Positions 49,205 to 64,000 of a DNA stretch of 64,000 nucleotides are shown here, piece after piece. The stretch spans positions 1 to 64,000 of the forward strand of contig JAVHLP010000006.1 in the NCBI GenBank assembly GCA_031082145.1. Reading direction: 5' to 3'. Both the position numbers and the translations under genes were made by a program. The DNA comes from a bacterium. GTDB lineage: Bacteria > Bacillota > Sulfobacillia > UBA995. The notes beneath the pieces are model-generated. The model made no database searches, was not told the DNA's origin, and saw only the letters and a list, made by a program, of their open reading frames with translations. Numbering within the stretch: the stretch's first letter is position 1; the number at the start of each line of letters is the position of its first letter.

Positions 49205-51205
49205 ATGGGCTCGTTCGACCTCAAGGCGCCCTTCAAACCCAGCGGTGACCAGCCCGCGGCGATCGAGCGGCTGGTGGCAGCAGTCGAGGAAGGGCATCGT
49301 CACGTGGTGCTGCTGGGGGTGACCGGGAGCGGCAAGACCTTCACGGTAGCCAACCTGGTGGCCAGGATCAAGCGGCCCACGCTGGTCATATCCCACAACA
49401 AGACGCTGGCCGCCCAATTGTGCGGGGAGTTCAAGGAATTCTTCCCCGAGAGCGCGGTGGAGTACTTCGTCTCCTACTACGACTACTACCAGCCCGAGGC
49501 CTACTTGCCCCAGACCGACACCTTCATCGAGAAGGAGGCCTTGATAAACGACGAGATTGACAAGCTGCGCCATTCCGCCACCTCAGCGCTGCTGGAGCGG
49601 CGGGATGTCCTGGTGGTTGCCAGCGTCTCCTGTATCTACGGCCTGGGTTCGCCCGCCGACTATCGCCAGCTCATGCTCTCGTTGCGGGTCGGCCGGGAGC
49701 TGGACCGCGATCAGGTTCTCCGGGACCTGGTACAAGTGCAGTACCAGAGGAACGACGTCAGCCTGGTCCGGGGCAGTTTCCGGGTCCGGGGCGACGCCCT
49801 GGAGATCTTGCCCGCCGGTTCGGGTGAGAAAGCCCTGCGGGTGGAGTTCTTCGGCGATGAAGTGGAGCGGATCGCCGAGATCGACGTGTTGACGGGGGAG
49901 GTGCTGGGGTACCGCGAGCACGTCGCCATCTACCCCGCCAGTCACTACGCGACCATGCAGGACAAGCTCCGGTGGGCCGCCGAGGCCATTGAAGTCGAGT
50001 TGGTGGAACGCCTCGCCTGGCTCCGCGGCCGGGGCCGACTCGTAGAGGCGCAGCGGCTGGAGACGAGAACCCGGCATGACCTGGAGATGATCCGGGAGGC
50101 GGGCTACTGCGCCGGCATTGAGAACTACTCCCGGTACTTGACGGGGCGCCAGCCCGGCGAGCGGCCCTACACCCTGATGGACTTCTTTCCCCGGGACTTG
50201 CTGGTGGTGGTGGACGAGTCGCACCAGACCATCCCCCAGATCCGGGCCATGTACCATGGGGATCGATCGCGAAAGGAGTCTCTGGTGGAACACGGTTTCC
50301 GGCTCCCCTCGGCCTACGACAACCGCCCCCTGACCTTCGAGGAGTTCGAGGCCCAGGTGGGTCAGGTCGTGTACATCTCGGCCACCCCCGGCCCGTACGA
50401 ACGGGAACGGGCGGGAGTGGTGGTGGAACAGATAGTCCGGCCGACGGGCCTGGTCGATCCGGCAGTCGAGGTCCGGCCCACCGCCGGGCAGATCGACGAC
50501 CTGGTAGGAGAACTCCGGGGCCGCGTCCGGGCGGGCGAACGGGCCCTGGTCACCACCCTCACCAAGAAACTGGCCGAGGACCTGACCGACTACCTGACCG
50601 ACGTTGGGATCAAGGCCCGTTACCTCCATTCGGAAGTGGACACCCTGGAACGGATGGAGATTCTCCGGGACCTGCGGCTCGGCAGCTTCGACGTTCTGGT
50701 CGGCATTAACCTGCTACGCGAGGGTCTGGACCTTCCCGAAGTCTCGCTGGTGGCCATCCTGGATGCCGACCGCGAGGGCTACCTGAGATCCGCCACTTCC
50801 CTGATCCAGACTACCGGCCGGGCCGCCCGCAACGTCAACGGGAAAGTGGTCATGTACGCGGATACGATGACCGATTCCATGCGGCAGGCCATCGCCGAGA
50901 CCGAGCGGCGCCGCAGTATCCAGGGCGAGCACAACCGGCGGCATGGGATCACCCCGGAGACCGTCCGCAAGGCGGTACGGGAGGTGATCCAGGCCACCCG
51001 GGTGGCGGAGCGGAAGTCTGTCTACTTGCCGGAGGATCTCAGCCGGCTGAACCGGCGGGAGATCCCCGGCCTCATCGAGCGGCTGCACAAGGAGATGAAG
51101 GAAGCCTCCCGACGGCTTGAGTTCGAGCGGGCGGCCGATCTCAGGGACATGATCTTCGAGCTCGAGGAACTGGCCCGGCGACCGGAGAGGAGAACGGGGG
51201 CTTGA
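49205..51205 (+). CDS. uvrB: Excinuclease ABC subunit B
   Basis: UvrB is the damage-verifying helicase of nucleotide excision repair. The 666-residue protein has Walker A GVTGSGKT (38-45), the beta-hairpin region [17 protein letters not shown], helicase motifs VVDESHQT and QTTGRAARN, and a C-terminal UVR motif for UvrC ([17 protein letters not shown]). ATG 49205 follows AAGGTGA; a longer in-frame start would lie upstream of the promoter. Transcription should be SOS-induced through the LexA box. Confidence 0.97.
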
Positions 51206-54045
51206 GCGACCGCATCATCATCCGCGGAGCGCGGCAACACAACCTCAAGAACATCGATTTGGAGCTCCCGCGGGACAGCCTGGTGGTCATCACCGGACTC
51301 TCCGGGTCGGGCAAGAGCTCGTTGGCCCTGGACACGATCTACGCCGAGGGCCAGCGGCGCTACGTGGAATCGCTGTCCGCCTATGCCCGTCAGTTCCTGG
51401 GCCAGATGAACAAGCCCGACGTCGACTACATCAGCGGTCTGTCGCCGGCCATCTGCATCGACCAGCGCAGCGCCGGGCGCAATCCCCGGTCCACGGTGGC
51501 TACGGTTACCGAGATCTACGATTACCTGCGGCTCTTGTACGCCCGCATTGGCAGGCCGCATTGCCCCCAGTGCGGGCGGCCTATCAGCCAGCAGACGGTG
51601 GACCAGGTAGTCGACCAGTTGACGGCCTTGCCCGCCGGCACCCGGGTACATCTTCTGGCGCCGCTGGTGAGGGGGCGCAAGGGCGAGCACGAGCGGGTAC
51701 TGGAGGATGCCCGCCGGGCGGGCTACGTTCGCGTCCGCGTCGACGGCGAGGTGCTGGAGGCAGCCTCCGCGATCCAGCTCGACAAGCAGAAGAAACACAC
51801 CATCGAAGTGGTGGTGGACCGGCTGGTGATCCGGGAGGGCATCGCGCGCCGGCTGGCCGACTCGGTCGAGGCGGCCATGAAGCTGTCCGGGGGCCTTGTC
51901 CTGGCCGACACCGGCGAGGGGGAGATCCTCTTCAGCCAGCGTTTCGCCTGTGCCGAGTGCGGCGTGAGCCTTGAGGAACTGTCCCCGCGAATGTTCTCCT
52001 TCAATAGCCCCTATGGCGCCTGCCCTACCTGTCACGGTCTGGGCACCCGGATGGAGATCGACCCCGACCTCGTCATCCCCGATCGGCGCAAGACCGTTGA
52101 CGACGGCGCCATCGCTCCCTGGAGCAGGGGCAATCATACGTACTACCCGCAACTGCTGGAGGCCGTGGCCGCCCACTACGGATTCCCTACCGACCGCCCG
52201 ATGGCCGACCTCGATCGGCGGCACATCGAGATCCTGCTCCACGGTTCGGGGGGAGAGAGCATCCGGTTTCGCTACTTGAATCCTTACGGCCGGGTGCGGC
52301 AGTGGAAGGTGGCTTTTGAGGGGGTCATCCCCAACCTGGAGCGCCGGTACCGCGAAGCCCAGAGCGACGGGGTGCGGCTGGAGATCGAGGAGTACATGAG
52401 CACCACCCCTTGCCCGTCCTGCCGGGGCGCCCGGCTGAAGCCGGCGACCCTGGCGGTCCGGGTCGGCGGGCTGTCGATCGCTGAGTTGGCAGCATCATCG
52501 GTCACGGCGGCGCGGGAGTTCTTCCGGCGGCTGGAGCTCGGCGATCGGGACCGGCTCATAGCCCGCCAGGTGCTCAAGGAGATCGATGCCCGGCTGGGTT
52601 TCCTGGGCAATGTGGGCTTGGGCTACCTCACTCTGGACCGGCCGGCCGCCACCCTGGCCGGAGGCGAGGCCCAGCGCATCCGCCTGGCCACCCAGATTGG
52701 TTCCAGCCTGGTCGGGGTCCTCTACGTCCTCGACGAGCCCAGTGTGGGTCTGCACCAGCGCGACAACCTGCGGCTGCTGGACACCCTGCGGGCGCTGCGC
52801 GATCTGGGCAACACCGTCATTGTGGTCGAGCACGACGAGGAGACCATCCGGTCCGCCGACCACATCGTGGACATCGGTCCGGGGGCCGGAGAGCACGGGG
52901 GAAGGGTGGTCGCCCAGGGAAGCCTGCCCGACATCCTGGCCTGCCCGGAGTCTATTACCGGGCAGTATCTCTCCCGCCGGCTGGAGATACCCCTGCCCGG
53001 GCGGCGCCGGCCGGCCGGCGAGAAGCGGTTGGTGGTCCGCGGAGCCCGGCAGCATAACCTCAAGGACATCGATGTCAGCTTCCCGCTGGGGTTGCTGGTG
53101 GCCGTCACCGGAGTCAGCGGCAGCGGGAAGTCCACGCTGGTCAACGAGATCCTCTACCGCCGGCTGGCGCAGGTTCTCAACGGCGCCCGTAGCCGGCCCG
53201 GCGATCACCGGGCAGTAGACGGGACCGAGCACCTGGAGAAGGTGGTCGACATCGACCAGTCCCCCATCGGCCGGACCCCCCGATCCAACCCGGCCACCTA
53301 CACCGGGGCTTTCGACTTCATCCGGGAGTCCTTCGCCCAGACGGCGGAGGCGCGGGTGCGAGGCTACCGGCCGGGGCGCTTCTCCTTCAACGTCCGCGGG
53401 GGCCGCTGCGAGGCGTGCCGGGGCGACGGCATCATCAAGATCGAAATGCACTTCCTGCCCGACGTCTACGTCCCTTGCGAGATCTGCAAGGGCCAGCGGT
53501 ACAACCGGGAGACGCTGGAGGTCCGCTACAAGGGCCGTACCATAGCCGAGGTTCTCCAGATGACGGTGGAGGAGGCCCTGGAGTTCTTCCGGCCCATCCC
53601 GCGCATCCGCCGCAAGCTCCAGACCTTACACGACGTCGGATTGGACTACATCCGGCTCGGGCAGCCGGCCACCACCCTGTCGGGAGGCGAGGCCCAGCGC
53701 GTCAAACTGGCCACCGAGTTGTCTCGCCGGTCCAACGGCAAGACCCTCTATATCCTGGACGAGCCCACAACCGGGCTGCACCTGGCCGACATTCACCGCC
53801 TGCTGGAGGTGCTAAACCGGCTGGTCGAAGCCGGCGACACGGTGCTGGTGATCGAACACAACCTGGAGGTCATCGCCAGTGCCGACTGGGTGGTGGATCT
53901 CGGGCCCGAGGGGGGCGATGCCGGCGGCCGGGTGGTGGCCGAGGGATCGCCGGAGCGGGTGGCCGAGATGCCGGGATCCCACACCGGGCGGTTCCTGCGG
54001 GAGCGATTGGCCCGCCGGCCGGCCCTGGCGGCGGCCGAGCGGTGA
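51202..54045 (+). CDS. uvrA: Excinuclease ABC subunit A
   Basis: UvrA is the damage-sensing dimeric ATPase. The 947 aa contain two ABC modules: Walker [10 protein letters not shown] (32-40) and GVSGSGKST (637-645), each with its signature ([26 protein letters not shown]). The zinc-finger cysteines ([32 protein letters not shown]) are present. TTG 51202 overlaps the uvrB stop as TTGA, the usual coupling in this cluster. Confidence 0.97.
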
Positions 54046-55880
54046 ACGGGGAACTCAGGGAACAGGCTGCCGGGCTGCCGGATCGGCCCGGAGTCTACCT
54101 GTTCCTGAACGAAACGGGCGAACCCCTGTATGTGGGGAAGGCTGCCTCGCTGAGGGAGCGTGTGCGCAGCTACTTCCAGAAGGGCGCGGCGGCCCGCACC
54201 CGGCTGATGTTGTCGCGGGCCGCCGCCCTGGACTACATCGCCACCGACTCCGAGACGGAAGCCCTCATCCTGGAATGCAATCTCATCAAGAAGCACCGGC
54301 CCAGCTTCAACGTACGGCTGCGGGACGACAAGCACTTCCCCTACCTCAGGGTGGGACTGCACCAGGAGTGGCCGGCAGTCTCGGTGGTCCGGAGCGTCGC
54401 CCGCGACGGCGCCCGTTACTTCGGTCCCTACACCCGCCCGCAGGCCCTGGCGGAGACGGTACGAGCCGTGCGCCGCGTCTTTCCCTTTCGAACCTGCAGT
54501 GATCACCGGTTGGCCACCACCCGCCGTCCCTGCCTGCACTATGATCTGGGCCGGTGTCCCGCCCCCTGCGGGGGGACGGTCACCCCCGAGGACTACCAGG
54601 CCAGCATCAGGGAGTTGTGCCTGTTTCTGGAGGGGCGCGGGGGCCACGTCCTGAAGCGCCTGCGGGAGCGGATGGAGGGGGCGGCGGAGAGACTGGACTT
54701 CGAGAAGGCGGCCGCGTTGAGGGACCAGCTCCGGTCGGCCGAACAGGTGGTCGAGCGCCAGAAGATGATATCGCCGGCCGGGGAAGACCTGGACGCCTTG
54801 GGCGTGGCTCAGGAAGGAGAAGAGGCCTGCGTCCAGGTCTTCCTGGTCCGGGATGGTAAGCTGGTAGGCCGGGAGAACTTCCTCCTGAGCACCGGCGGGG
54901 CCTCGCCGGCCGACATCGTGGCAGCCTTCCTGAAGCAACATTATGCGGAGGTCTCCTCGGTACCCCCCCTGATTCTGGTTCCCGTTAACGTGCCCCCGGG
55001 TGAGCGCCGGCTGATCGAGGAGTGGCTGGCCGGCCGCCGCGGCGCCCGGGTACGGGTGGCGCGGCCGGTGAGAGGGGCCAAACGGGGCATGGTCGAGCTG
55101 GCCGCCGGCAACGCGGGCCTGGCTCTGGAGGAGGCCGGGGCAGCCGGGCGCAGGGAGGACGAACTCACCACCGGCGCGGTGGTGGAGTTGGGCCGGGTAC
55201 TGAATCTGGAGCGTCCCCCGGCCAGGATCGAGGCTTTTGACGTCTCGGGCTTCCAGGGGAGGGAAGTGGTGGCCTCGATGGTGGTCTTCGAGGATGGCCG
55301 TCCCCGCAAGGAAGGCTACCGCTGTTACCGTATCCGGGGCCCGGACCGGCGCGACGACTACCGGATGCTGCAAGAGGCTCTTCACCGGCGCTACCGGCGG
55401 GCGGTGTCCCTGCCGGACCTGGTGATGGTGGACGGGGGGCGTGGACACCTCGCAGCCACCCGAGAGGTGCTGGAGCACCTTGGTCTCGGCCACCTCCCCA
55501 CGGTGGCCTTGGCCAAGGAACGGGAGCACCTGTACGTGCCCGGCCGGGAGGAACCCCTGGCCCTGGGTGACGCCTCACCGGCCCTGCGCTTGCTCCGGCG
55601 GGTGCGGGACGAGGCTCACCGTTTCGCCGTCGCCTATCATCGCCGGCTGAGGGGGCGGGGCGCCACGCGCTCGGGGCTGGACGGGGCCCCGGGGATCGGC
55701 CCCGCCCGGCGCAAGGCCTTGCTGCGCCACTTCGGATCCCTGGCCGCCATCCGGAAGGCGGCGACGGAAGAGCTGGCCCGGGCGCCCGGGATGGGCTCCC
55801 GGCTGGCACAAGAGCTGTACCGCTATCTACATCCGAAAACCGAAGGGGGAAGCGGCAATGGAGGATCACCGCAAGCGTAG
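54042..55880 (+). CDS. uvrC: Excinuclease ABC subunit C
   Basis: UvrC makes both incisions around the lesion. The 612-residue protein has the N-terminal GIY-YIG nuclease ([18 protein letters not shown]), a UVR motif ([16 protein letters not shown]) near residues 205-240, an RNase-H-like C-terminal nuclease ([18 protein letters not shown]) and tandem helix-hairpin-helix motifs ([19 protein letters not shown]). GTG 54042 overlaps the uvrA stop. The end overlaps ogt by 23 nt. Confidence 0.96.
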
Positions 55881-56379
55881 CCGTTCCCGGAGGTCCGCCC
55901 CGGCGAGCCATGACTCGGCGTGGAGAGTTTTCCCCACTCCCCTGGGCTCCTTCACCGTAGAGTACCGGGAACGCGGTGTCACCCGGGTGCTCTTGCCGGG
56001 GCAACAACCCAGGCCGCCCGCGGCCACCGGTCCCTGCCCGGCCTTTCTGGTGGACCTGGAACGGGAACTGGACCGTTATTTCGCCGGCCAGCGGGTAGCC
56101 TTCACGGTTCCGTTGCTCCTGGAAGGAATGACCCCTTTCCAGACCCGGGTCCTGGAGGAGTGTCGCGGCATAGGCCACGGCGAGGTGCGCACCTATGGCT
56201 GGCTCGCCACCCGGGCTGGCCGGCCCGGGGCGGCGCGGGCGGTGGGTCAGGTCATGGCCCGCAACCCGGTGCCCCTGCTGATTCCCTGCCACCGCGTAGT
56301 CGCGGCCGGGGGCGGCCTGGGCGGGTTCGGTGGCGGTCTCGCCCTGAAGGCTCGGCTGTTGGCCATCGAGGGCCGCTAG
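55858..56379 (+). CDS. ogt: Methylated-DNA-protein cysteine methyltransferase
   Basis: This suicide enzyme removes alkyl groups from O6-alkylguanine. It has 173 aa, with the acceptor Cys144 in the invariant PCHRVV and the helix-turn-helix GEVRTYGWLATRAGRPGAAR before it. The N-terminal 20 residues are basic and Ser/Arg-rich, outside the conserved fold. ATG 55858 lies inside the uvrC end with GGGGGAAG upstream. Its place in the uvr operon suggests that it shares SOS induction. Confidence 0.93.
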   Translation: MEDHRKRSRSRRSAPASHDSAWRVFPTPLGSFTVEYRERGVTRVLLPGQQPRPPAATGPCPAFLVDLERELDRYFAGQRVAFTVPLLLEGMTPFQTRVLEECRGIGHGEVRTYGWLATRAGRPGAARAVGQVMARNPVPLLIPCHRVVAAGGGLGGFGGGLALKARLLAIEGR

Positions 56380-56452: not shown

Positions 56453-56481
56453 TTGACATCTGGGGGAATGCAGCCTAAACT
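56453..56481 (+). promoter_or_regulatory. Sigma-A promoter of the DUF2089/SHOCT operon
   Basis: A perfect -35 TTGACA (56453-56458), 17-bp spacer and -10 TAAACT (56476-56481). It has the same flanks and spacing as the promoter at 61172-61200. Confidence 0.8.
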
Positions 56482-56499
56482 TAAGGTGATCCCTTAACG

Positions 56500-56518
56500 A
56501 TATCAAGGCTAACCTCAA
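56500..56518 (+). promoter_or_regulatory. Putative operator or leader element, copy 1
   Basis: ATATCAAGG, 4 nt (CTAA), CCTCAA. It starts 18 nt after the -10, so it lies within the first 30 nt of the transcript or downstream promoter DNA. The same element at the same distance is found at 61219-61237. Confidence 0.5.
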
Positions 56519-56544
56519 ACATGTTGGGAAGGGGGGGTAAACCC

Positions 56545-56934
56545 TTGGAACGCACCCATCGCCGGTCGGTGCTGGGAAAGTGCCCTGTCTGCGGTGAAGG
56601 CCTGGAGGTAACCCGGCTGCAGTGCTCCTACTGCGAGACTGGGGTGGACGGGCGGTTTCAGCCCTGCAAGTTCTGCCTCCTGAACCGGGACCAGAAGGAC
56701 TTCATCGAAATCTTCATCAGGTCCCGCGGCAACATCAAGGAAGTCGAGAGGGAGCTCGGCATCTCCTATCCGACGGTTCGGGGGCGACTTGACGCCGTTA
56801 TCGAGGCCCTCGGGTACAAGGTTGATCGCTCGGAGCTGGAAGACCGGAACCGGAGGCGCAAGGAGATCCTGGACGCGCTGAACCGGGGCGAGATGAACCC
56901 GGAACAAGCCATCAAGGAACTCCGGCAGGGATAG
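56545..56934 (+). CDS. DUF2089 zinc-ribbon/HTH protein, probable regulator
   Basis: A 129-residue protein. The N-terminus has a zinc ribbon (CPVCGEGLEVTRLQCSYCET) with a further CKFC. A helix-turn-helix follows (GNIKEVERELGISYPTVRGR, about residues 63-90). A C-terminal helical module (RRKEILDALNRGEMNPEQAI) is the SHOCT-like module shared with other proteins of this operon. These features match DUF2089, which I take to be a DNA-binding regulator of the operon it heads. TTG 56545 has a seven-G SD 7 nt upstream; ATG 56521 would include the SD in the coding region. Confidence 0.85.
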   Translation: MERTHRRSVLGKCPVCGEGLEVTRLQCSYCETGVDGRFQPCKFCLLNRDQKDFIEIFIRSRGNIKEVERELGISYPTVRGRLDAVIEALGYKVDRSELEDRNRRRKEILDALNRGEMNPEQAIKELRQG

Positions 56935-56946
56935 GGGGTGACCGCT

Positions 56947-57951
56947 GTGGAGGAAGAGCGCCTGCTCATCCTCAAGATGTTGGAGGAAGGCAAGATCACT
57001 GCCGAAGAGGCGGCCCAGTTGTTCGCGGCCCTGGGAGAGGACCCTGGCCGCGGGGATGCCGGCGGCCGCCCTTGGCCCAGGCTAGGCTATCACTTCCGCT
57101 GGCGGCTGGAGGACATGGTCGGCAGACTGGCCCGCCCGCCGGGTGGAGAGCTGTTCTCGCTGGAGGAAGTGGTGACCGGCCGCTTCGACCCCGGGCTTCG
57201 CCCGCGACTACGGCTCCTGACCGCTAACGGGCGCATCGCCGTGATGGCGGCTGACGGCCCGGAATACCGGGTCGCCATCACCAAGGAGATCCGGGCGGCG
57301 AGCCGGGAAGAGGCCGAGGCTCAGGCGGCCGATCTGGTACGGGTCGCCCGCGACGGGCGAACGCTGGCGGTGGATGCCGGGCACTCCCGCCGCAGGCGGA
57401 GGTGGCACGGGGCGACCGTCAGCATCGAAGCCCGCCTGCCTCGCGAAGCTGTCTACGCGGCCACCTTCCTCTCCGCCAACGGGCAGGTCGAGGTGGACGG
57501 ACTCGAGTTCTCGGAGCTCAGGGCGGCCACTGTCAACGGAACCGTACGGCTCGAGGGAGTGGAGGCGGACGGCATCAGCTGCCGGACGGCCAACGGAAGC
57601 ATCCACGTGGCAGGCTTGGCCGCGAACCTCCGGGCGGGAACGGTCAATGGTAGCCTGGAGGTACACCCCCGCCCGCGCGGGCCCGAGGCCAGGGTCCGGC
57701 TGCACACGGTCAACGGCCCCATCCGGCTGAGCTTGCCCGACGGGGCCCACTGTGAGTTGGAGGCCTCGACGGTGGCCGGCCGCATACACCTTGAAGGTCC
57801 CGTCCTGGAGACGGTAGCCCAGGAACGCGGGCTGGTCGGCCGGAAGCTGAAGGTCCGCTCGAAGGGCGGGGGACCCCTGCTTGAGATACGGGCGGTCACG
57901 GTGAGCGGGAGCATTCGAGTAACCGCGCAGAGGGAGGGTGCTGATTCATGA
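56947..57951 (+). CDS. SHOCT-like/DUF4097 protein (YvlB/LiaX-type architecture)
   Basis: A 334-residue protein without signal peptide. The N-terminus carries the short helical module (RLLILKMLEEGKITAEEAAQ, residues about 4-25). The remainder is a DUF4097 right-handed beta-helix with repeated short strands (VNGTVRLEGV, ANGSIHVAGL, VNGSLEVHP, VNGPIRLSLP, VAGRIHLEGP). This order matches YvlB of Bacillus and LiaX of Enterococcus, envelope-stress proteins. GTG 56947 has AGGGGGT 6 nt upstream; GTG 56938 lies within that SD. Confidence 0.8.
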   Translation: MEEERLLILKMLEEGKITAEEAAQLFAALGEDPGRGDAGGRPWPRLGYHFRWRLEDMVGRLARPPGGELFSLEEVVTGRFDPGLRPRLRLLTANGRIAVMAADGPEYRVAITKEIRAASREEAEAQAADLVRVARDGRTLAVDAGHSRRRRRWHGATVSIEARLPREAVYAATFLSANGQVEVDGLEFSELRAATVNGTVRLEGVEADGISCRTANGSIHVAGLAANLRAGTVNGSLEVHPRPRGPEARVRLHTVNGPIRLSLPDGAHCELEASTVAGRIHLEGPVLETVAQERGLVGRKLKVRSKGGGPLLEIRAVTVSGSIRVTAQREGADS

Positions 57952-58280
57952 CCTACAGCCTGGTGGTGGACCGGACACTGGTACTGACGCTCTTCTTTGG
58001 CGTCCTGGGGCTCGTTTTCGCCCTGGGGGTGCTCAACCTGATCCAGGTAGCCGTACTGGCGGCCCGGGGCCTCTACAAGCCGCCCAAGCACCTTGTCGGG
58101 TGGTCGATCAGGTATTCCCGGGTCCGCGAGGGCCTGCGACTGCTGGTGGTGGGCGGCGTGGTGGCCTACGGGATCCACTTCAGCCTGGGGTTTTGGGTGA
58201 CGCTGTTCCTGGTGGTCGCCGGGGTGGGGTTGGTCCAAGTTCTGACCGGCCTGGCCGGGCGCTATCACCACTGCCGGTGA
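57948..58280 (+). CDS. Small membrane protein of unknown function
   Basis: A 110-residue protein with three hydrophobic segments (about residues 12-38, 62-78 and 80-102) and a basic loop between the first two (RGLYKPPKHLVGWSIRYSRVRE). I do not recognise a family. The ATG overlaps the stop of the preceding gene as ATGA, and the next gene begins 15 nt later. In Lia/Yvl-type operons small membrane proteins accompany the DUF4097 protein, so it may anchor the neighbouring beta-helix proteins; that is inference. Confidence 0.7.
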   Translation: MTYSLVVDRTLVLTLFFGVLGLVFALGVLNLIQVAVLAARGLYKPPKHLVGWSIRYSRVREGLRLLVVGGVVAYGIHFSLGFWVTLFLVVAGVGLVQVLTGLAGRYHHCR

Positions 58281-58295
58281 ACGGGGGGGTAGGCG

Positions 58296-59432
58296 ATGAC
58301 GGAAGAGGGACGGCGGGAGGAGTTCTTCCCCGCCTGCGGCGAGGTGAGCGTGGACCAATCGGGCGGGAGAGTGGAGGTCCACGGTTGGGCCGAGGATCGC
58401 GTCCGGCTGGTCTCCACGCCCCGGGGGGCCCCCGGCCAGGCCCGGGTGGTCGCTACCCACCAGGGTAGCCGGTTGAGGGTCACCGTTGAACGCGTGAATC
58501 ATCGTTGCTGGGGGCCGGCGGGAGGGCGAGTGGACATTGAGCTCTGGGTTCCCCGGGCCACCCGCCTCGACATCAACTCGGGTAGCGGTGAGGTGACGGT
58601 GGAGGGGATCAGGGGCCGGGTCCGGGTGGAGAGCGGTAGTGGTGGTATTGAAGCCCGCAAGTTGGCCGGCTCGCTGGCTCTCGAGGCGGGGAGCGGATCG
58701 GTACGGGTCGAGGATTGCGAGGGTGGCGGGCAGCTGAATGCAGGCAGCGGTGATGTCACTGTCATCCGGTCCAGCGGGACGTTTGAACTCGAAACCGGGT
58801 CCGGGGACATCACGCTGTCCGAGTTGACGGGGAATTTGCGCGTTGAGACCGGCAGCGGTGATGTGCAGGCGCACCGGCTGCGTGGCGACCTCGCACTGGA
58901 GGGCAGTCAGGGCGACGTGGTCATCCGGGACCTGGCCGCCGGCCGGGTGATGGTGGACCTGGCCTCCGGCGATCTGAAGCTGGAGGGTTACCCGCTGCCG
59001 GGGGCGCACTGGAACCTGGAGACCGCCTCCGGGGACGTCCTGCTGGCGATACCGGAAGCGGCGGCCTGCGCCATCGACGTCAGAACCAGTTCCGGCGGCA
59101 TCGACTGCCGCCTGCCACTGGAGGCCAGGGAGACGGGCCCCCACTCGCTCAAGGGAGTGCTGAACCGGGGCGGTGGCCTGATCCAGGTCGAGACCGCTTC
59201 GGGCTCGGTAATCCTGGGCCCGCTGGCCGGTCTGTGGCCGGTCGCCGAACCCGACAGCGAACAGGATGACGCCTCCCTGAGCGTACTGCGAATGGTGGAA
59301 GAGGGCAAGATCACCCCGGCCGAAGCCGAGGCCTTGCTGGCAGCCTTGTCCGACGCCCCCTCGGAGGCGGGGGACGAGGGTGCTCCCGCGGAGGAAGAGG
59401 CAACGGACAAAGAGGAGGGGGGCGGGGTCTAG
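58296..59432 (+). CDS. DUF4097 beta-helix protein with C-terminal SHOCT-like module
   Basis: A 378-residue protein with the reverse order of its relative two genes upstream. The beta-helix comes first (residues about 60-310, with repeated SGSGEV, AGSGSV, AGSGDV, TGSGDI, TGSGDV and ASGDL turns). The helical module follows (LSVLRMVEEGKITPAEAEAL, about 328-347), and then an acidic tail rich in Glu, Ala and Asp. There is no signal peptide. The regular Gly-Ser-Gly-Asp turns suggest a surface for oligomerisation or ligand binding. ATG 58296 follows a G-run SD. Confidence 0.78.
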   Translation: MTEEGRREEFFPACGEVSVDQSGGRVEVHGWAEDRVRLVSTPRGAPGQARVVATHQGSRLRVTVERVNHRCWGPAGGRVDIELWVPRATRLDINSGSGEVTVEGIRGRVRVESGSGGIEARKLAGSLALEAGSGSVRVEDCEGGGQLNAGSGDVTVIRSSGTFELETGSGDITLSELTGNLRVETGSGDVQAHRLRGDLALEGSQGDVVIRDLAAGRVMVDLASGDLKLEGYPLPGAHWNLETASGDVLLAIPEAAACAIDVRTSSGGIDCRLPLEARETGPHSLKGVLNRGGGLIQVETASGSVILGPLAGLWPVAEPDSEQDDASLSVLRMVEEGKITPAEAEALLAALSDAPSEAGDEGAPAEEEATDKEEGGGV

Positions 59433-59460
59433 GGACCCACCCCCCGGCGGAGGTCGACGC

Positions 59461-59826
59461 ATGATGAAAGAAGACCGCCTCCAAGTGCTCAGGATGATCG
59501 AGAGCGGGAAGATCTCGGCCGAAGAGGGGCTACGGCTGCTGGAAGCCTACGAGGGCGGCCGGGAGACCCCTCGGGGACGGGGGCGCTGGCTCCGGGTCAA
59601 GGTGAGCCACCTGTCCACCGGCAAGCACAAGGCCAACGTGAACGTGCCGCTGCACCTGGTTGAGACCGGCCTGCGCTTCGTGCCGGGCGGCGTCTTCCGC
59701 CTCGGTCAGGCGGGCGAGATCGACGTGGAGTCGCTACTGGAGATGGTACGTAGCGGGCTCTCGGGCAGGCTCTTGGACGTCACGGCCGAGGACGAGGACG
59801 TCAGGGTTGAGATTGACGTCGACTGA
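59461..59826 (+). CDS. Small SHOCT-like module protein
   Basis: A 121-residue soluble protein. The N-terminal module LQVLRMIESGKISAEEGLRL (about residues 7-26) is the same as in the neighbouring genes. A short alpha/beta region follows (RWLRVKVSHLSTGKHKANVNVPLHLVETG) with no DUF4097 repeat. Such proteins occur next to YvlB-type genes and may bind the shared module of their partners. ATG 59461 has GGAGGT 6 nt upstream. Confidence 0.75.
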   Translation: MMKEDRLQVLRMIESGKISAEEGLRLLEAYEGGRETPRGRGRWLRVKVSHLSTGKHKANVNVPLHLVETGLRFVPGGVFRLGQAGEIDVESLLEMVRSGLSGRLLDVTAEDEDVRVEIDVD

Positions 59827-61036
59827 AGCGACGGTCCGCGTCCGACCGGCCGCGGGGCGGGACTTCACGCTGGTGCTGGTAGGCCACACCCTGGCCCTGG
59901 TGGGCTCCTCGGTCTACCAGGTGGCCCTGATGTGGTGGGTGTTGGCTGTCACCGGGTCCACGACCGCGATGGCCACCGCCAGCACCTTCTCGCTCGTGCC
60001 AGCCCTGGTGATGGGCCCTCTGGCCGGGGTGTACGTCGACCGGCTGGACCGGCGCCGGCTACTGGTGGCGTCCACGCTGGTCCAAGGCTCTCTGATGTTG
60101 GTACCGGCGTTGCTCCTGGCGTCCGGGCGGCTGGAGGTCTGGCATACCTACCTGGTCGCGGCGGCCCTGGCGTTGGCCGCGACCTTCAGCTCTCCGGCCG
60201 TCGGCGCCTCCCTGCCCAACCTCGTCGCCGGTGACGGCCTGGTCCGAGCGAACTCCCTCCTTCAGTTGGCGGTGGGGCTCTCCGGCGTGCTCGGTCCCGC
60301 CCTGGGTGGCATGAGCGTGGCCTCCCTGGGGGAGGCGGGAACCATGGGCCTTAACGCCGCCATTTTCCTCACCGCAGGGGCCTGCATCAGCCTGGCCCGC
60401 TGGACCAGTCCCCTCGTCGGCGCCGGGCAGGGGGCCCCGGTGCTCGGGCAGTTGGCGGCGGGGTTGATCTTCATCGCCCGGCACCTCGTGCTGCTCTCGG
60501 TGGCCGCGGTGACCGCCTTGCTGAACTTCGCCGCCGCCCCCTTGGGCCTGCTGCTGCCCGTGATGGCCCGGGAAGTTCTGGGTGGAGGACCCGCCGCGTA
60601 CGGGACTCTGGGGGCGGCCTTGTCGCTGGGGGCCACGGCGGGCGCGGCGACCATGGCCGTCCGCGGCGCGGTGCGCCGGAAGGGAAGGGTGATCCTGTTC
60701 GCGGTGGCGGCCAGCGGCCTCGGCCTTGCCGGCTTCGGGATGAGCCGCGCCCTGCCGGCGGCGGTCGCCAACCTGGTGGCGATGGGTTGCTGTATTGGTG
60801 TGGCTAACGTGCTGTTCGCCACGGCGCTGCAGACCCTGATCCCCGATGACCGGCGGGGCCGGGTGATGGCGGCTTTCAGCACCTTCAACCAGGGGTTGCG
60901 GCCGTTGGCGATCATGCTGGTGGGCGTCCTGGCCGACCGCTACCCGGCTCCTCACATCCTGGCCCTATCCGGGGTGCTGATAGTCTTGGTCTGCGGGTCC
61001 GCCTTCCTGGTTCCCGGCATGCGCGACATTTCCTGA
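59813..61036 (+). CDS. MFS transporter, probable exporter
   Basis: A 407-residue major facilitator with about 12 membrane segments. The start FTLVLVGHTLALVGSSVYQVALMWWVL and the loop GPLAGVYVDRLDRRRLLV between segments 2 and 3 are typical of the MFS_3 (enterobactin/macrolide-exporter-like) group; GPALGGM marks the fifth segment. TTG 59813 overlaps the preceding gene by 14 nt with AGGG upstream; other starts in this region are worse. As last gene of the operon it could export the compound that the beta-helix proteins detect. Confidence 0.82.
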   Translation: MTSTEATVRVRPAAGRDFTLVLVGHTLALVGSSVYQVALMWWVLAVTGSTTAMATASTFSLVPALVMGPLAGVYVDRLDRRRLLVASTLVQGSLMLVPALLLASGRLEVWHTYLVAAALALAATFSSPAVGASLPNLVAGDGLVRANSLLQLAVGLSGVLGPALGGMSVASLGEAGTMGLNAAIFLTAGACISLARWTSPLVGAGQGAPVLGQLAAGLIFIARHLVLLSVAAVTALLNFAAAPLGLLLPVMAREVLGGGPAAYGTLGAALSLGATAGAATMAVRGAVRRKGRVILFAVAASGLGLAGFGMSRALPAAVANLVAMGCCIGVANVLFATALQTLIPDDRRGRVMAAFSTFNQGLRPLAIMLVGVLADRYPAPHILALSGVLIVLVCGSAFLVPGMRDIS

Positions 61037-61116
61037 TCTTTACTCTCCCGGGGACGAAACCCGGGGGCATCTCCCACCGTCTAACCCCTCGTGACCCTGG
61101 CACCGGGTAAGACTTC

Positions 61117-61159
61117 TCAGGTTGATCCTGAAAGTCGCGAGGATCAACCTGAAACTTTT
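61117..61159 (+). terminator. Inverted repeat and terminator after the MFS gene
   Basis: TCAGGTTGATCCT (61117-61129) pairs perfectly with AGGATCAACCTGA (61140-61152) around a 10-nt loop, followed by AACTTTTT. A weaker CCCGGG/CCCGGG hairpin lies at 61047-61065. The 10-mer AGGTTGATCC in the arms also occurs at the TetR promoter (63002-63011), so a binding-site role is possible too. Confidence 0.6.
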
Positions 61160-61171
61160 TGAAGGAACCCC

Positions 61172-61200
61172 TTGACATCCTAGGGGCACCCCTGTAATAT
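61172..61200 (+). promoter_or_regulatory. Sigma-A promoter of the small-gene pair
   Basis: A perfect -35 TTGACA (61172-61177), 17-bp spacer and -10 TAATAT (61195-61200). The spacer contains a small palindrome AGGGGCACCCCT (61182-61193). Confidence 0.82.
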
Positions 61201-61218
61201 GAACCCGGAACCTCACAA

Positions 61219-61250
61219 ATATCAAGGATCGCCTCAATGATATTGAGGCG
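61219..61250 (+). promoter_or_regulatory. Putative operator or leader element, copy 2, with palindrome
   Basis: ATATCAAGG, 4 nt (ATCG), CCTCAA at 61219-61237, exactly 18 nt after the -10 as in copy 1. The CCTCAA is also part of a perfect 9-bp inverted repeat CGCCTCAAT/ATTGAGGCG (61230-61250, loop GAT) just before the SD GGGGAGG. Confidence 0.5.
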
Positions 61251-61267
61251 AGGGGAGGTAGGGAACG

Positions 61268-61471
61268 ATGTTCGGGGGAGCTCTGACGGGAGACTACGGC
61301 GGGGGTCTGTTCCCACCGGTCCTGGAGAAGGTGGCCGAGGGAAACCCCGACTTGGCTGACGGGCACCGGGGAACCGCCGAAGACGCTGACAGCGCCCTTC
61401 GCCGCGCAGTGCCTTTCCTGCGCGACCCCGCCGTGCGGGCGAGCGTGGTCCGGGTGCGGCGGGGAGCCTGA
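61268..61471 (+). CDS. Small protein of unknown function, tandem copy 1
   Basis: A 67-residue protein (MFGGALTGDYGG start, RAVPFLRDPAVRASVVRV, RRGA end) with no signal peptide, membrane segment or known domain. It is a clear paralogue of the gene at 61522-61737. ATG 61268 has GGGGAGG (61252-61258) 9 nt upstream. The promoter and putative operator upstream match those of the DUF2089 operon, so both units are probably regulated together. Confidence 0.7.
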   Translation: MFGGALTGDYGGGLFPPVLEKVAEGNPDLADGHRGTAEDADSALRRAVPFLRDPAVRASVVRVRRGA

Positions 61472-61491
61472 CGCGGGAGGACCGCGTCAGG
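61467..61491 (+). other. Hairpin at the end of small-gene copy 1
   Basis: CCTGACGCGG (61467-61476) pairs perfectly with CCGCGTCAGG (61482-61491) around GAGGA. It includes the stop codon of copy 1 and has no T tract, so it may set the ratio of the two proteins or stabilise the upstream mRNA. Confidence 0.55.
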
Positions 61492-61521
61492 GCACTACCA
61501 AGGAAACGGGAGGCGAGACAG

Positions 61522-61737
61522 GTGTTTGAGGGTACGCTTACGGTGGACTACGGCGGAGTTCTGTCGCCGCTGCTCTTGGAGGATCTGACCGAGGCCAATG
61601 GCGCCTTGAAGGTGACCGGGCGCAAGCCCCTGACCATTCGGGCCGCCGATCTAGATCGGACCCTCTACCGTATCCTGCCTTTCCTCGGCGACCCCGCCAT
61701 GCGGGTAAACGGCGTACGGGTACGGCGGGGAGCCTGA
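61522..61737 (+). CDS. Small protein of unknown function, tandem copy 2
   Basis: A 71-residue paralogue of the preceding protein. Shared features are the start MF-G-LT-DYGG, a central Asp/Leu/Arg-rich helix (AADLDRTLYRILPFL) and the end DPA-R, VRVRRGA. About half of positions are identical by eye, with one 4-residue gap. GTG 61522 has GGGAGG about 8 nt upstream. There is no obvious terminator after it before the opposing gene at 61804. Confidence 0.7.
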   Translation: MFEGTLTVDYGGVLSPLLLEDLTEANGALKVTGRKPLTIRAADLDRTLYRILPFLGDPAMRVNGVRVRRGA

Positions 61738-61803: not shown

Positions 61804-62364
61804 TCACCCACGGGGCCGGCAGATGGTCTCCAGCACCTGGGTCTTGAAGAAGTCGCGGGCATGGGCCGGACGGATCACCACCGCCGTGTCCGCCCCCCGC
61901 CCGGTCCCGCCAACCGCCAGCACGTCCACGCCGTGAGGAACCAGACCCGCGTCCAGAGCCATCACCGCGATCTCGACGCACACCTTCATGCCCTGGCCGA
62001 ACAGCCGCAAGGTGGCCGCCACGACACCTCCCGGGTACAAGCCGCCGAACTGGTTCGTGACCGCCCGTTCCACGTTGGCGAAGAGGTGCGTAGTGGTCAG
62101 GAGCTTGACGCCCTTGCTCTCAAGGTACTGCCGTTCCGCGGCCTCCATCTCGTCCAGACCCGGCTCCCGGAAGCCGACGTGATGGGTCACGCACACGATG
62201 TTGGAAGGAACTGCACCGGCCATCTCGGCCAAGAGGGCCCGCACGGTGGCTCCCGTGTTTGAGGCCACCACGAGGTGGGGCAGCCCGCATTCGCGCGCTC
62301 GCTCGAGAGCTGCCCGCAGTGTGGGCCGGGTGGCTTCCGGTCCGGCCTTCTCCCAGTAGAGCAC
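61804..62364 (-). CDS. Stand-alone pyruvate kinase C-terminal-domain-like protein
   Basis: A 186-residue protein resembling the allosteric C-terminal (alpha/beta) domain of pyruvate kinase. HLVVASNTGATVRALLAEM, IVCVTHHVGFREPG, VKLLTTTHLFANVERA and DVLAVGGTGRGADTAVVI fit that fold, while no catalytic barrel is present. Such free domains occur in Bacillota; they may bind a phosphorylated ligand, but the role is not known. GTG 62364 (- strand) has GGGAGGAG 7 nt upstream. The gene follows the TetR gene by 3 nt and is probably cotranscribed with it. Confidence 0.75.
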   Translation of the reverse strand: MLYWEKAGPEATRPTLRAALERARECGLPHLVVASNTGATVRALLAEMAGAVPSNIVCVTHHVGFREPGLDEMEAAERQYLESKGVKLLTTTHLFANVERAVTNQFGGLYPGGVVAATLRLFGQGMKVCVEIAVMALDAGLVPHGVDVLAVGGTGRGADTAVVIRPAHARDFFKTQVLETICRPRG

Positions 62365-62367
62365 GGC

Positions 62368-62949
62368 TTACTCCTCCCGTTCCGCCAGGCCGTTGAAGAC
62401 CAGCTCGGCGAAGATATCGGCTATCTCATCGGGGGTGAAACGACCGCTGGGGTTGTACCAGCGGTAGATCCAGTTGGTCATTCCCAGCAAAGCGTAGGTC
62501 ACCAGCTTGGAGTCCATCCGGCGGAGTTCGCCGGCTTTCATGCCCTCGCTGACGAGGCGCTGGAGCAGGCGCTCGTAGCGGAGACGATGGATGTCAATGA
62601 TCTCCTCCTGGGTGGGCGACAGCACCTTGGTCTCCCGCAGGAAGATGGTCAGCATATCCAGTCGCTGGGAGATGGCGTGGACATGGGCGGCGATCGCCTG
62701 GCGCAGTTTCTCGCGAGGGGAGCCGGGACCGGCGTAGATCTCCTCCAGCGTTCTGGCCATCGAGCCGATGGCTTCCTCAAAGATCTTGAACAGCAACTCC
62801 TGCTTGCTCGAGATGTAGTAGTAAAGACTGCCCTTCTGCATGCCAACGGCGTGAGCAATCTCCTGCATAGAAGCCGCGTGGTAGCCCTTCTCGCGGAAGA
62901 CACGCATGGCGACGGCCAAGATGTCGGCCTCCTTGGCTATGGGGTCCAC
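62368..62949 (-). CDS. TetR/AcrR family transcriptional regulator
   Basis: A repressor of about 190 aa. The N-terminal helix-turn-helix (SMQEIAHAVGMQKGSLYYYI, about residues 27-46) precedes helical ligand-binding and dimerisation segments. YYYISSKQELLFKIFEEA and the C-terminal TYALLGMTNWIYRWY resemble regulators of fatty-acid or acyl-CoA genes. The start is odd. GTG 62949 touches its own SD (GGGAGGT, 62950-62956), while an ATA codon 9 nt further on has ideal spacing and would give the standard N-terminus AKEADILAVAMRVF. A palindrome in the leader suggests autorepression. Confidence 0.85.
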   Translation of the reverse strand: MDPIAKEADILAVAMRVFREKGYHAASMQEIAHAVGMQKGSLYYYISSKQELLFKIFEEAIGSMARTLEEIYAGPGSPREKLRQAIAAHVHAISQRLDMLTIFLRETKVLSPTQEEIIDIHRLRYERLLQRLVSEGMKAGELRRMDSKLVTYALLGMTNWIYRWYNPSGRFTPDEIADIFAELVFNGLAEREE

Positions 62950-62958
62950 CTCCCAACC

Positions 62959-62970
62959 AAACGGCCGTTT
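62959..62970 (-). promoter_or_regulatory. Palindromic operator candidate of the TetR gene
   Basis: AAACGGCCGTTT is a perfect 12-bp palindrome just downstream of the predicted transcription start of the TetR gene, the usual place for an autorepression site. Confidence 0.5.
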
Positions 62971-62979
62971 TCCAAGCCC

Positions 62980-63008
62980 ATCATACCACTGGCTACCGGC
63001 TGGATCAA
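62980..63008 (-). promoter_or_regulatory. Sigma-A promoter of the TetR gene
   Basis: On the - strand TTGATC (63008-63003), 17-bp spacer, TATGAT (62985-62980). The transcript would start near 62973 and cross the palindrome. Confidence 0.65.
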
Positions 63009-63015
63009 CCTAAGC

Positions 63016-64000
63016 TCAGGGCCGCTCTCCACTCCGGGCGACGGGATTCCCACCCCAGCCCTCGGGGTTCACCGGGTGTGGCGGCTGCCGCCCGGACAAC
63101 GCCAGGAGCAGGTTGTCCACGGCCAGTTGGGCCATGCGGGTCCGGGTTGCCCCGGTGGCGCTGCCCAGATGGGGGAGGGCGACCACGTTGTCCAGGGTCA
63201 GGAGGGGATGACCGGGGTCCACCGGTTCCCGGTGGAACACGTCCAGGCCGGCGCCATGTAGGGCACGTGCTGCCAGGGCTGCGTAGAGCGCCTCCTCGTC
63301 CACGACCTCACCCCGGGAGGTGTTGATGAGGAACGCGGTCGGTTTCATGCGGGCCAACTCCTCTCGCCCGATCAGGCCCCGGGTGGCCGCCGTCAACGGC
63401 ACGTGCAGGCTCACGAAGTCGGCCCGGGCCAGCAGCTCGGTCAGGGTGGCGGGACGGACCCCCAGCGCTTCCTCCACGGCCGGCTTGCGGCTGGTGCTGG
63501 CGTATATGACCTCCATGGCGAACCCCTGAGCCCGCCGGGCGACCGCCTGGCCGATGCGCCCCAGTCCCACCAGGCCAAGGCAGGCCCCATGCACGTCCTG
63601 ACCCAACAGCAGCCCAGGATCCCAGGCCTGCCAGGCACCTGATCGGGTAAAGCGATCGCCTTCCACCAGCCGGCGGGCCACGGCGAGGATGAGGGCAAAG
63701 GCGAGGTCGGCCGTTGTCTCGGTTAGCACCCCGGGGGTGTTGGTCACCAGGATGCCTCTCTGGGTGGCTGCCGGCACGTCGACGTTGTTGTAGCCTACCG
63801 CACAGAGGCTGATGACCTTCAAGCGGGGGGCGGCGTCCATCAAGGATGCGTCCACCTGGTCGGTCAGTAGGCATAGCAGGCCGTCGGCCTGCTCCAGGCC
63901 GCGGACCAGTTCCTCGCGCGGCGGTGGGACCTCCCCGGGCCAGATCTCGAGTTCGACCGCCTGGGCCAGGCGCTGTCCGGCTTCCTCGGGCAAACGCCGC
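63016..64000 (-). CDS. D-2-hydroxyacid dehydrogenase (glyoxylate/hydroxypyruvate reductase type), 5' end missing
   Basis: An NAD(P)-dependent dehydrogenase of the D-isomer family, probably acting on glycerate/hydroxypyruvate or glyoxylate. The nucleotide-binding GLGRIG is followed by the catalytic Arg in NTSRGEVVDEEAL, Glu in DVFHREPVD and His in LPHLGSATGATR. The frame is open to the window end on the - strand and reads RRLPEEAGQ there, a typical start of the conserved N-terminus. A few residues including the true start are therefore outside; TTG 63993 is not the likely start. The TetR promoter follows the stop by only a few nt. Confidence 0.88.
   Translation of the reverse strand, partial: RRLPEEAGQRLAQAVELEIWPGEVPPPREELVRGLEQADGLLCLLTDQVDASLMDAAPRLKVISLCAVGYNNVDVPAATQRGILVTNTPGVLTETTADLAFALILAVARRLVEGDRFTRSGAWQAWDPGLLLGQDVHGACLGLVGLGRIGQAVARRAQGFAMEVIYASTSRKPAVEEALGVRPATLTELLARADFVSLHVPLTAATRGLIGREELARMKPTAFLINTSRGEVVDEEALYAALAARALHGAGLDVFHREPVDPGHPLLTLDNVVALPHLGSATGATRTRMAQLAVDNLLLALSGRQPPHPVNPEGWGGNPVARSGERP

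Follow-up and report, generated by a model that had tools for sequence, protein, structure and literature searches.

DUF2089 regulators encoded beside Toastrack (DUF4097) proteins have been described before. In the passages of Ravi et al. 2024 (PMC11237479) concerned with them, a DUF2089 protein with zinc ribbon, helix-turn-helix (HTH) and SHOCT domains (ZnR-HTH-SHOCT) shares a four-gene context with Toastrack, which was proposed to be a Lia/PSP-like system and an analogue of the lia operon. The window analysed here, a 64,000-nucleotide stretch from a bacterium of the class Sulfobacillia (Bacillota; assembly GCA_031082145.1, contig JAVHLP010000006.1, positions 1 to 64,000 of the forward strand), contains such a locus at 56453-61737. 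The same ZnR-HTH-SHOCT-like regulator stands beside Toastrack genes and its gene directly adjoins them, so the locus belongs to this context. It differs in having two Toastrack genes, a gene of the major facilitator superfamily (MFS) and genes of a small-protein family (sp). In Pfam, its membrane gene (57948-58280) matches neither LiaI-LiaF-TM nor PspC, but these are listed as variants in that source, so their lack does not rule the locus out. An earlier note on this DNA had called the operon a candidate for an undescribed one. This was not supported, since the DUF2089-Toastrack context is found in the passages of Ravi et al. and the helical module shared by its genes is already a Pfam family (PF22746); Toastrack too was known. 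What is new is the operator array in front of the genes. Neither an operator nor a regulon appears in those passages, and in the open-licence literature searched no operator or regulon was found for DUF2089, nor a characterised member of the family or any earlier report of the motif.

Two further relatives are YvlB of Bacillus subtilis, encoded in yvlABCD, and LiaX of enterococci. YvlB has the same N-terminal SHOCT-like plus Toastrack architecture as gene 2 of the operon, and LiaX shares the SHOCT-like/Toastrack architecture and Toastrack similarity. The yvl operon is controlled by sigma-W and is not known to have a DUF2089 regulator. In several Clostridia the last gene of the DUF2089 operon encodes a membrane protein of PF04020, the family of YvlD. 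The NCBIfam LiaX equivalog model scored 41.1 bits against a cut-off of 350, and Pfam and NCBIfam detected neither LiaFSR genes nor any histidine kinase or response regulator family among the six operon genes. The link to envelope responses of the YvlB/LiaX type made in the earlier note is plausible. An envelope role is suggested because Toastrack and YvlB are known in such company. The gene set seems to be used by many Bacillota against cell-envelope stress, and envelope stress has a slightly better than even chance of being the signal. The locus is best read as an autoregulated Toastrack/SHOCT membrane-stress module under its own DUF2089 regulator, with a probability of roughly 0.7.

In DUF2089 regulator promoters across Bacillota, TTAA-cored palindromes repeat every 21-22 bp. 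Their half-sites alternate, one per helical turn, and the palindrome takes the form CCTYAAnnnnnTTRAGG in high-GC genomes and TTAAn5TTAA in low-GC genomes. In 40 high-GC promoters of the class, 18 inverted CCTYAA/TTRAGG pairs were found at 11 bp (0.6 expected), 23 everted pairs at 10-11 bp (1.1 expected) and 31 same-strand pairs at 21-22 bp (2.6 expected). Among 78 named, mostly low-GC promoters, TTAA-TTAA pairs were in excess at 9 bp (72 vs. 4.6, z-score 32) and 21 bp (82 vs. 4.6, z-score 37), with additional peaks at 30 bp (z-score 28), 42 bp (z-score 14) and 12-13 bp. In the control, 622 other upstream stretches of the same named loci, TTAA spacings were enriched at most 2.5-fold. The arrays sit on the core promoter. 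Of 110 promoters, 77 hold at least three cores in register, against 1.4 after shuffling, and 53 hold at least four, against 0. Apart from the array, upstream regions of distant loci cannot be aligned by eye, so its spacing seems to be kept by selection rather than simply by descent. Judging from these sequences, the phased operator array is almost certainly real.

Both predicted transcripts of the locus carry such an array. Within 5.5 kb there are three promoter-like sites where 0.2 are expected, and two of them, both on the plus strand, head the two transcripts. These are the best two promoters of the region, each with a 17-bp spacer and a match to the consensus at 10 of 12 bases: P1 (56453..56481; -35 TTGACA at 56453-56458, -10 TAAACT at 56476-56481) and P2 (61172..61200; -35 TTGACA at 61172-61177, -10 TAATAT at 61195-61200). 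The arrays lie just 3' of each promoter, and both have four half-sites of the CCTYAA/TTRAGG type in alternating orientation, one per 10-11 bp. Array O1 (56481..56518, plus strand) spans from the -10 to about +30 of the six-gene operon and consists of TTAAGG (56481-56486), CCTTAA (56492-56497), TCAAGG (56503-56508) and CCTCAA (56513-56518). Array O2 (61211..61248, plus strand) consists of CCTCAC (61211-61216), TCAAGG (61222-61227), CCTCAA (61232-61237) and TTGAGG (61243-61248). The string ATATCAAGGNTNNCCTCAA is identical at window positions 56500 and 61219, and TATCAAGGNNNNCCTCAA occurs exactly only at the P1 and P2 promoters in this genome. Because the second predicted promoter, with the same type of operator, drives the two small genes sp1 and sp2, the unit reaches 61737 and not 61036. 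The earlier note had recognised neither the arrays nor this second transcript.

Phased TTAA arrays could also be a general promoter feature, such as an AT-rich UP element or bendable DNA, or they could serve a different global regulator that has nothing to do with DUF2089. Such an origin would suit low-GC Clostridia, where the array consists almost wholly of A+T and its cores run into the -35 box, and the regulator is tied to the site by genomic association only. However, the same spacing is found with G+C-bearing CCTYAA half-sites in genomes of up to about 70% GC, the control upstreams of the same loci contain little of it, and long arrays in flanking DNA occur only before genes of this system. 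A general feature or a foreign site is thus highly unlikely.

Twelve further long arrays were found in this flanking DNA. Ten precede small genes of the same operon, of the sp type or of the SH and SHC types (SH is the product of gene 5 of the operon, SHC its conserved C-terminal domain), and two lie at regulator starts that the open reading frame (ORF) finder had put too far upstream. In Tissierella-type loci the array stands in front of an SHC gene located 5' of the regulator, and in three others (L176, L183 and L236) before SH. One genome of 6.4 Mb (G061) has perfect four-core arrays solely at its DUF2089 promoter. A triple pattern with N5 spacing gave 40 matches in 61 genomes, about ten of them immediately 5' of a DUF2089 or sp gene. 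Since these arrays associate with genes of the system, the local DUF2089 protein is the likely binder, and the predicted binding is highly probable. In 15 low-GC genomes, a four-core TTAA search allowing one mismatch stayed near background except at DUF2089 promoters, with a caveat that its control was uninformative, the pattern being nearly its own reverse. An N4-spaced pattern tried for the genome-wide regulon was dropped as too noisy; it apparently matched common codon strings. For this widespread regulator family the array allows the binding site to be predicted, together with a local regulon (the regulator itself, SH/SHC, Toastrack and sp), and the function of DUF2089/SHOCT/Toastrack operons becomes testable, for example in culturable Anaerocolumna or Desulfosporosinus.

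The position of the arrays bears on how the regulator would act. Among 70 scored promoters, 54 have the TTGA of the -35 as one of the array cores, and many of these arrays start 42 or 63 bases 5' of the -35 box, where activators can bind. DUF2089 might accordingly be imagined as an activator, its arrays around or upstream of the -35 recruiting or remodelling RNA polymerase, which the SHOCT-like tail would contact. In fold searches the regulator HTH weakly resembles sigma region 4 and LuxR-type HTH domains, a likeness that would fit such a role; a sequence search found no solved relative of the regulator. However, in 14 of the 70 promoters, both window arrays among them, the array is located at the -10 or slightly beyond it. 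In the window and about a dozen other promoters it runs from the -10 into the transcribed region, and a classical activator is excluded there. Activation is also at odds with the 10/12 consensus match and 17-bp spacer of P1 and P2, and taken together it is unlikely. Near-consensus promoters covered by an array do not need an activator, so repression is favoured, and autorepression through the array is the best-supported mechanism, probable on sequence grounds. The DUF2089 HTH would occupy the array with several dimers placed next to each other along one DNA face, as suggested by the half-sites, which share a helical face and have a period of two turns. Binding would shut off both P1 (six-gene operon) and P2 (sp1-sp2).

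The six genes at 56453-61036 form one operon, as proposed in the earlier note, and all lie on the plus strand. The regulator (56521..56934, with an in-frame TTG shortly 3' of 56521 as an alternative start) scores above the Pfam cut-offs for both the PF22747 zinc ribbon (49.5 bits, cut-off 27.6) and the PF09862 HTH (88.1 bits, cut-off 33.4), and its alignment has four invariant Cys. The YvlB-like gene 2 (56938..57951, GTG start at 56938 or 56947) encodes an N-terminal SHOCT-like domain (PF22746, 41.7 bits) and Toastrack (PF13349, 38.6 bits), both above cut-off in Pfam. Gene 3 (57948..58280) encodes a small membrane protein without any Pfam or NCBIfam match, with homologues at the equivalent place in five loci of the class. 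In gene 4 (58296..59432) Toastrack (113 bits) is followed by a C-terminal SHOCT-like domain (30.6 bits), and in gene 5, SH (59461..59826), an N-terminal SHOCT-like domain (45.3 bits) by SHC. Gene 6 (59813..61036) encodes an MFS exporter (MFS_3, 93.4 bits), with a likely TTG start at 59813 that overlaps the end of SH. A probable intrinsic terminator of the operon (61117..61161, plus strand) stands between the MFS gene and P2-O2-sp1-sp2. It has a perfect 13-bp stem, a 10-nt loop and a T run (fold: -23.2 kcal/mol), and is not listed by the terminator scan, whose loop limit is 8 nt.

The module, the SHOCT-like_DUF2089-C family of Pfam (PF22746, cut-off 27 bits), is present in four of the six genes, in agreement with the earlier note. 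Genes 2, 4 and 5 are the sole three passing matches in the whole 2.34 Mb genome, so their clustering in the operon is not chance. The C-terminal copy of the regulator scores 12.2 bits (E 0.54) and is rejected on Pfam alone. With a family hidden Markov model (HMM), however, all 80 named homologues show a SHOCT-like tail, and the regulator as modelled by AlphaFold2 (pLDDT, the predicted local distance difference test, 91) comprises a zinc ribbon, the HTH and a two-helix hairpin (H86-103, H109-118). The regulator copy is thus real, as judged from the family HMM and the predicted hairpin.

The gene set is conserved across Bacillota. Of 61 genomes of the class, 41 encode DUF2089; the usual gene order there is uvrA, uvrC, (ogt), (sp), regulator, SHOCT-Toastrack, (membrane protein), Toastrack-SHOCT, SH, (MFS). 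Among 80 named loci, a SHOCT-like protein is encoded downstream of the regulator in 74, an SH gene lies nearby in 66 and a Toastrack gene in 39; SH is the commonest partner of the regulator. The exporter noted earlier is indeed part of the operon, but it is accessory, as an MFS-family gene was called near 12 of 40 loci of the class. Among the matches listed, the closest named relative is 81% identical in the regulator and is a metagenome-assembled genome labelled Symbiobacterium thermophilum. One genome scan gave at least hundreds of DUF2089 pattern matches, and outside Bacillota the family also occurs in Thermus, Deinococcus and Thermotoga.

The tail occurs on all regulators examined, and most of them share their operator with a SHOCT-like partner, which makes feedback by way of the tail an attractive idea. 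DUF2089 targets nearly always include SHOCT-like partners, so the loop would close on the protein side: partners may bind or release the regulator through the shared hairpin once Toastrack or SH proteins are engaged at a stressed membrane. Such module-mediated feedback is proposed tentatively. A fuller version is more doubtful, in which a zinc-ribbon/HTH autorepressor conserved across Bacillota binds cooperatively, as a row of dimers, to tandem palindromes spaced two helical turns apart. Its SHOCT-like tail would be the switch: upon membrane perturbation the SHOCT-like tails of SH and Toastrack proteins would compete with it or strip it from the DNA, making the system a one-component alternative to LiaFSR. 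The sensing scheme of the earlier note was different: a ligand-bound beta-helix (Toastrack) protein would sequester or release DUF2089 through the module in response to an envelope-active compound exported by the MFS pump. Four modules in one operon, a module on every regulator examined with its frequent downstream partner, and the interaction of B. subtilis YvlB with PspA, LiaH and yvl-operon proteins (PMC9239133) all speak for sequestration. However, Toastrack is encoded at only about half of the named loci and is therefore not the general sensor partner, for which SH is the better candidate, and the pump is accessory. Sequestration of this kind is rather unlikely.

Several observations count against the autoregulated module as proposed. 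Module-to-module covariation was rejected as evidence of contact: the HTH-corrected partial distance correlations are weak (regulator-SH 0.11, regulator-Toastrack 0.27) and not specific, as SHC without the module gives 0.16, and the shared residues are equally needed for the hairpin's own packing. In an experimental test, oligomerisation of the related canonical SHOCT domain was not supported (Eberhardt 2013, PMC3581485). With both of these negative, the module could not be upheld as the obvious means of contact between regulator and beta-helix proteins. On the DNA side, the number of in-register cores stays below three in 33 of the 110 promoters (among them those of some intra-operonic or HTH-divergent regulators), an array is often missing from sp genes that stand alone elsewhere in the class, and arrays that embed the -35 or lie upstream of it would also suit an activator. 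The literature searched contained no report of envelope-stress induction of a DUF2089 operon.

The SHC domain has no Pfam model. It is predicted to adopt a beta-beta-alpha/beta-beta fold, for which a fold search gave no PDB match at E <= 0.001; sequence matches to designed TIM (triosephosphate isomerase) barrels are regarded as chance. In Clostridia and Halanaerobia, some small genes that neighbour the regulator or SH (L191:7825-8136, L168:7741-8076 and L192:6637-6963) are SHC-like and lack the hairpin, and the two of these three that were scanned have no Pfam match. The second transcript encodes two members of the sp family, which is likewise without a Pfam model: sp1 (61268..61471, plus strand, 67 aa) and its tandem paralogue sp2 (61522..61737, plus strand, 71 aa), whose homologues stand immediately 5' of the regulator in other genera. 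In the class, sp is present in 17 of 151 genomes and directly precedes the regulator in several. A relationship between sp and SHC was ruled out (hhalign probability 0.2%). With SHC and sp, two Pfam-less families join the envelope-stress toolkit.

Small DUF2089-annotated proteins of 89-98 aa and of unknown function also occur in leaderless bacteriocin clusters (enterocin DD14, bawcin; PMC7332713, PMC10707071). As for the neighbourhood of the operon, uvrA, uvrC and ogt precede it in the window (51202-56379), and uvrC lies near the DUF2089 operon in 30 of the 80 named loci. The end of the window (61804-63993) is occupied by minus-strand genes: a TetR-family regulator (62368-62949; Pfam TetR_N and TetR_C_24) and further ORFs, one of which (63016-63993) appears by eye to be D-2-hydroxyacid-dehydrogenase-like.

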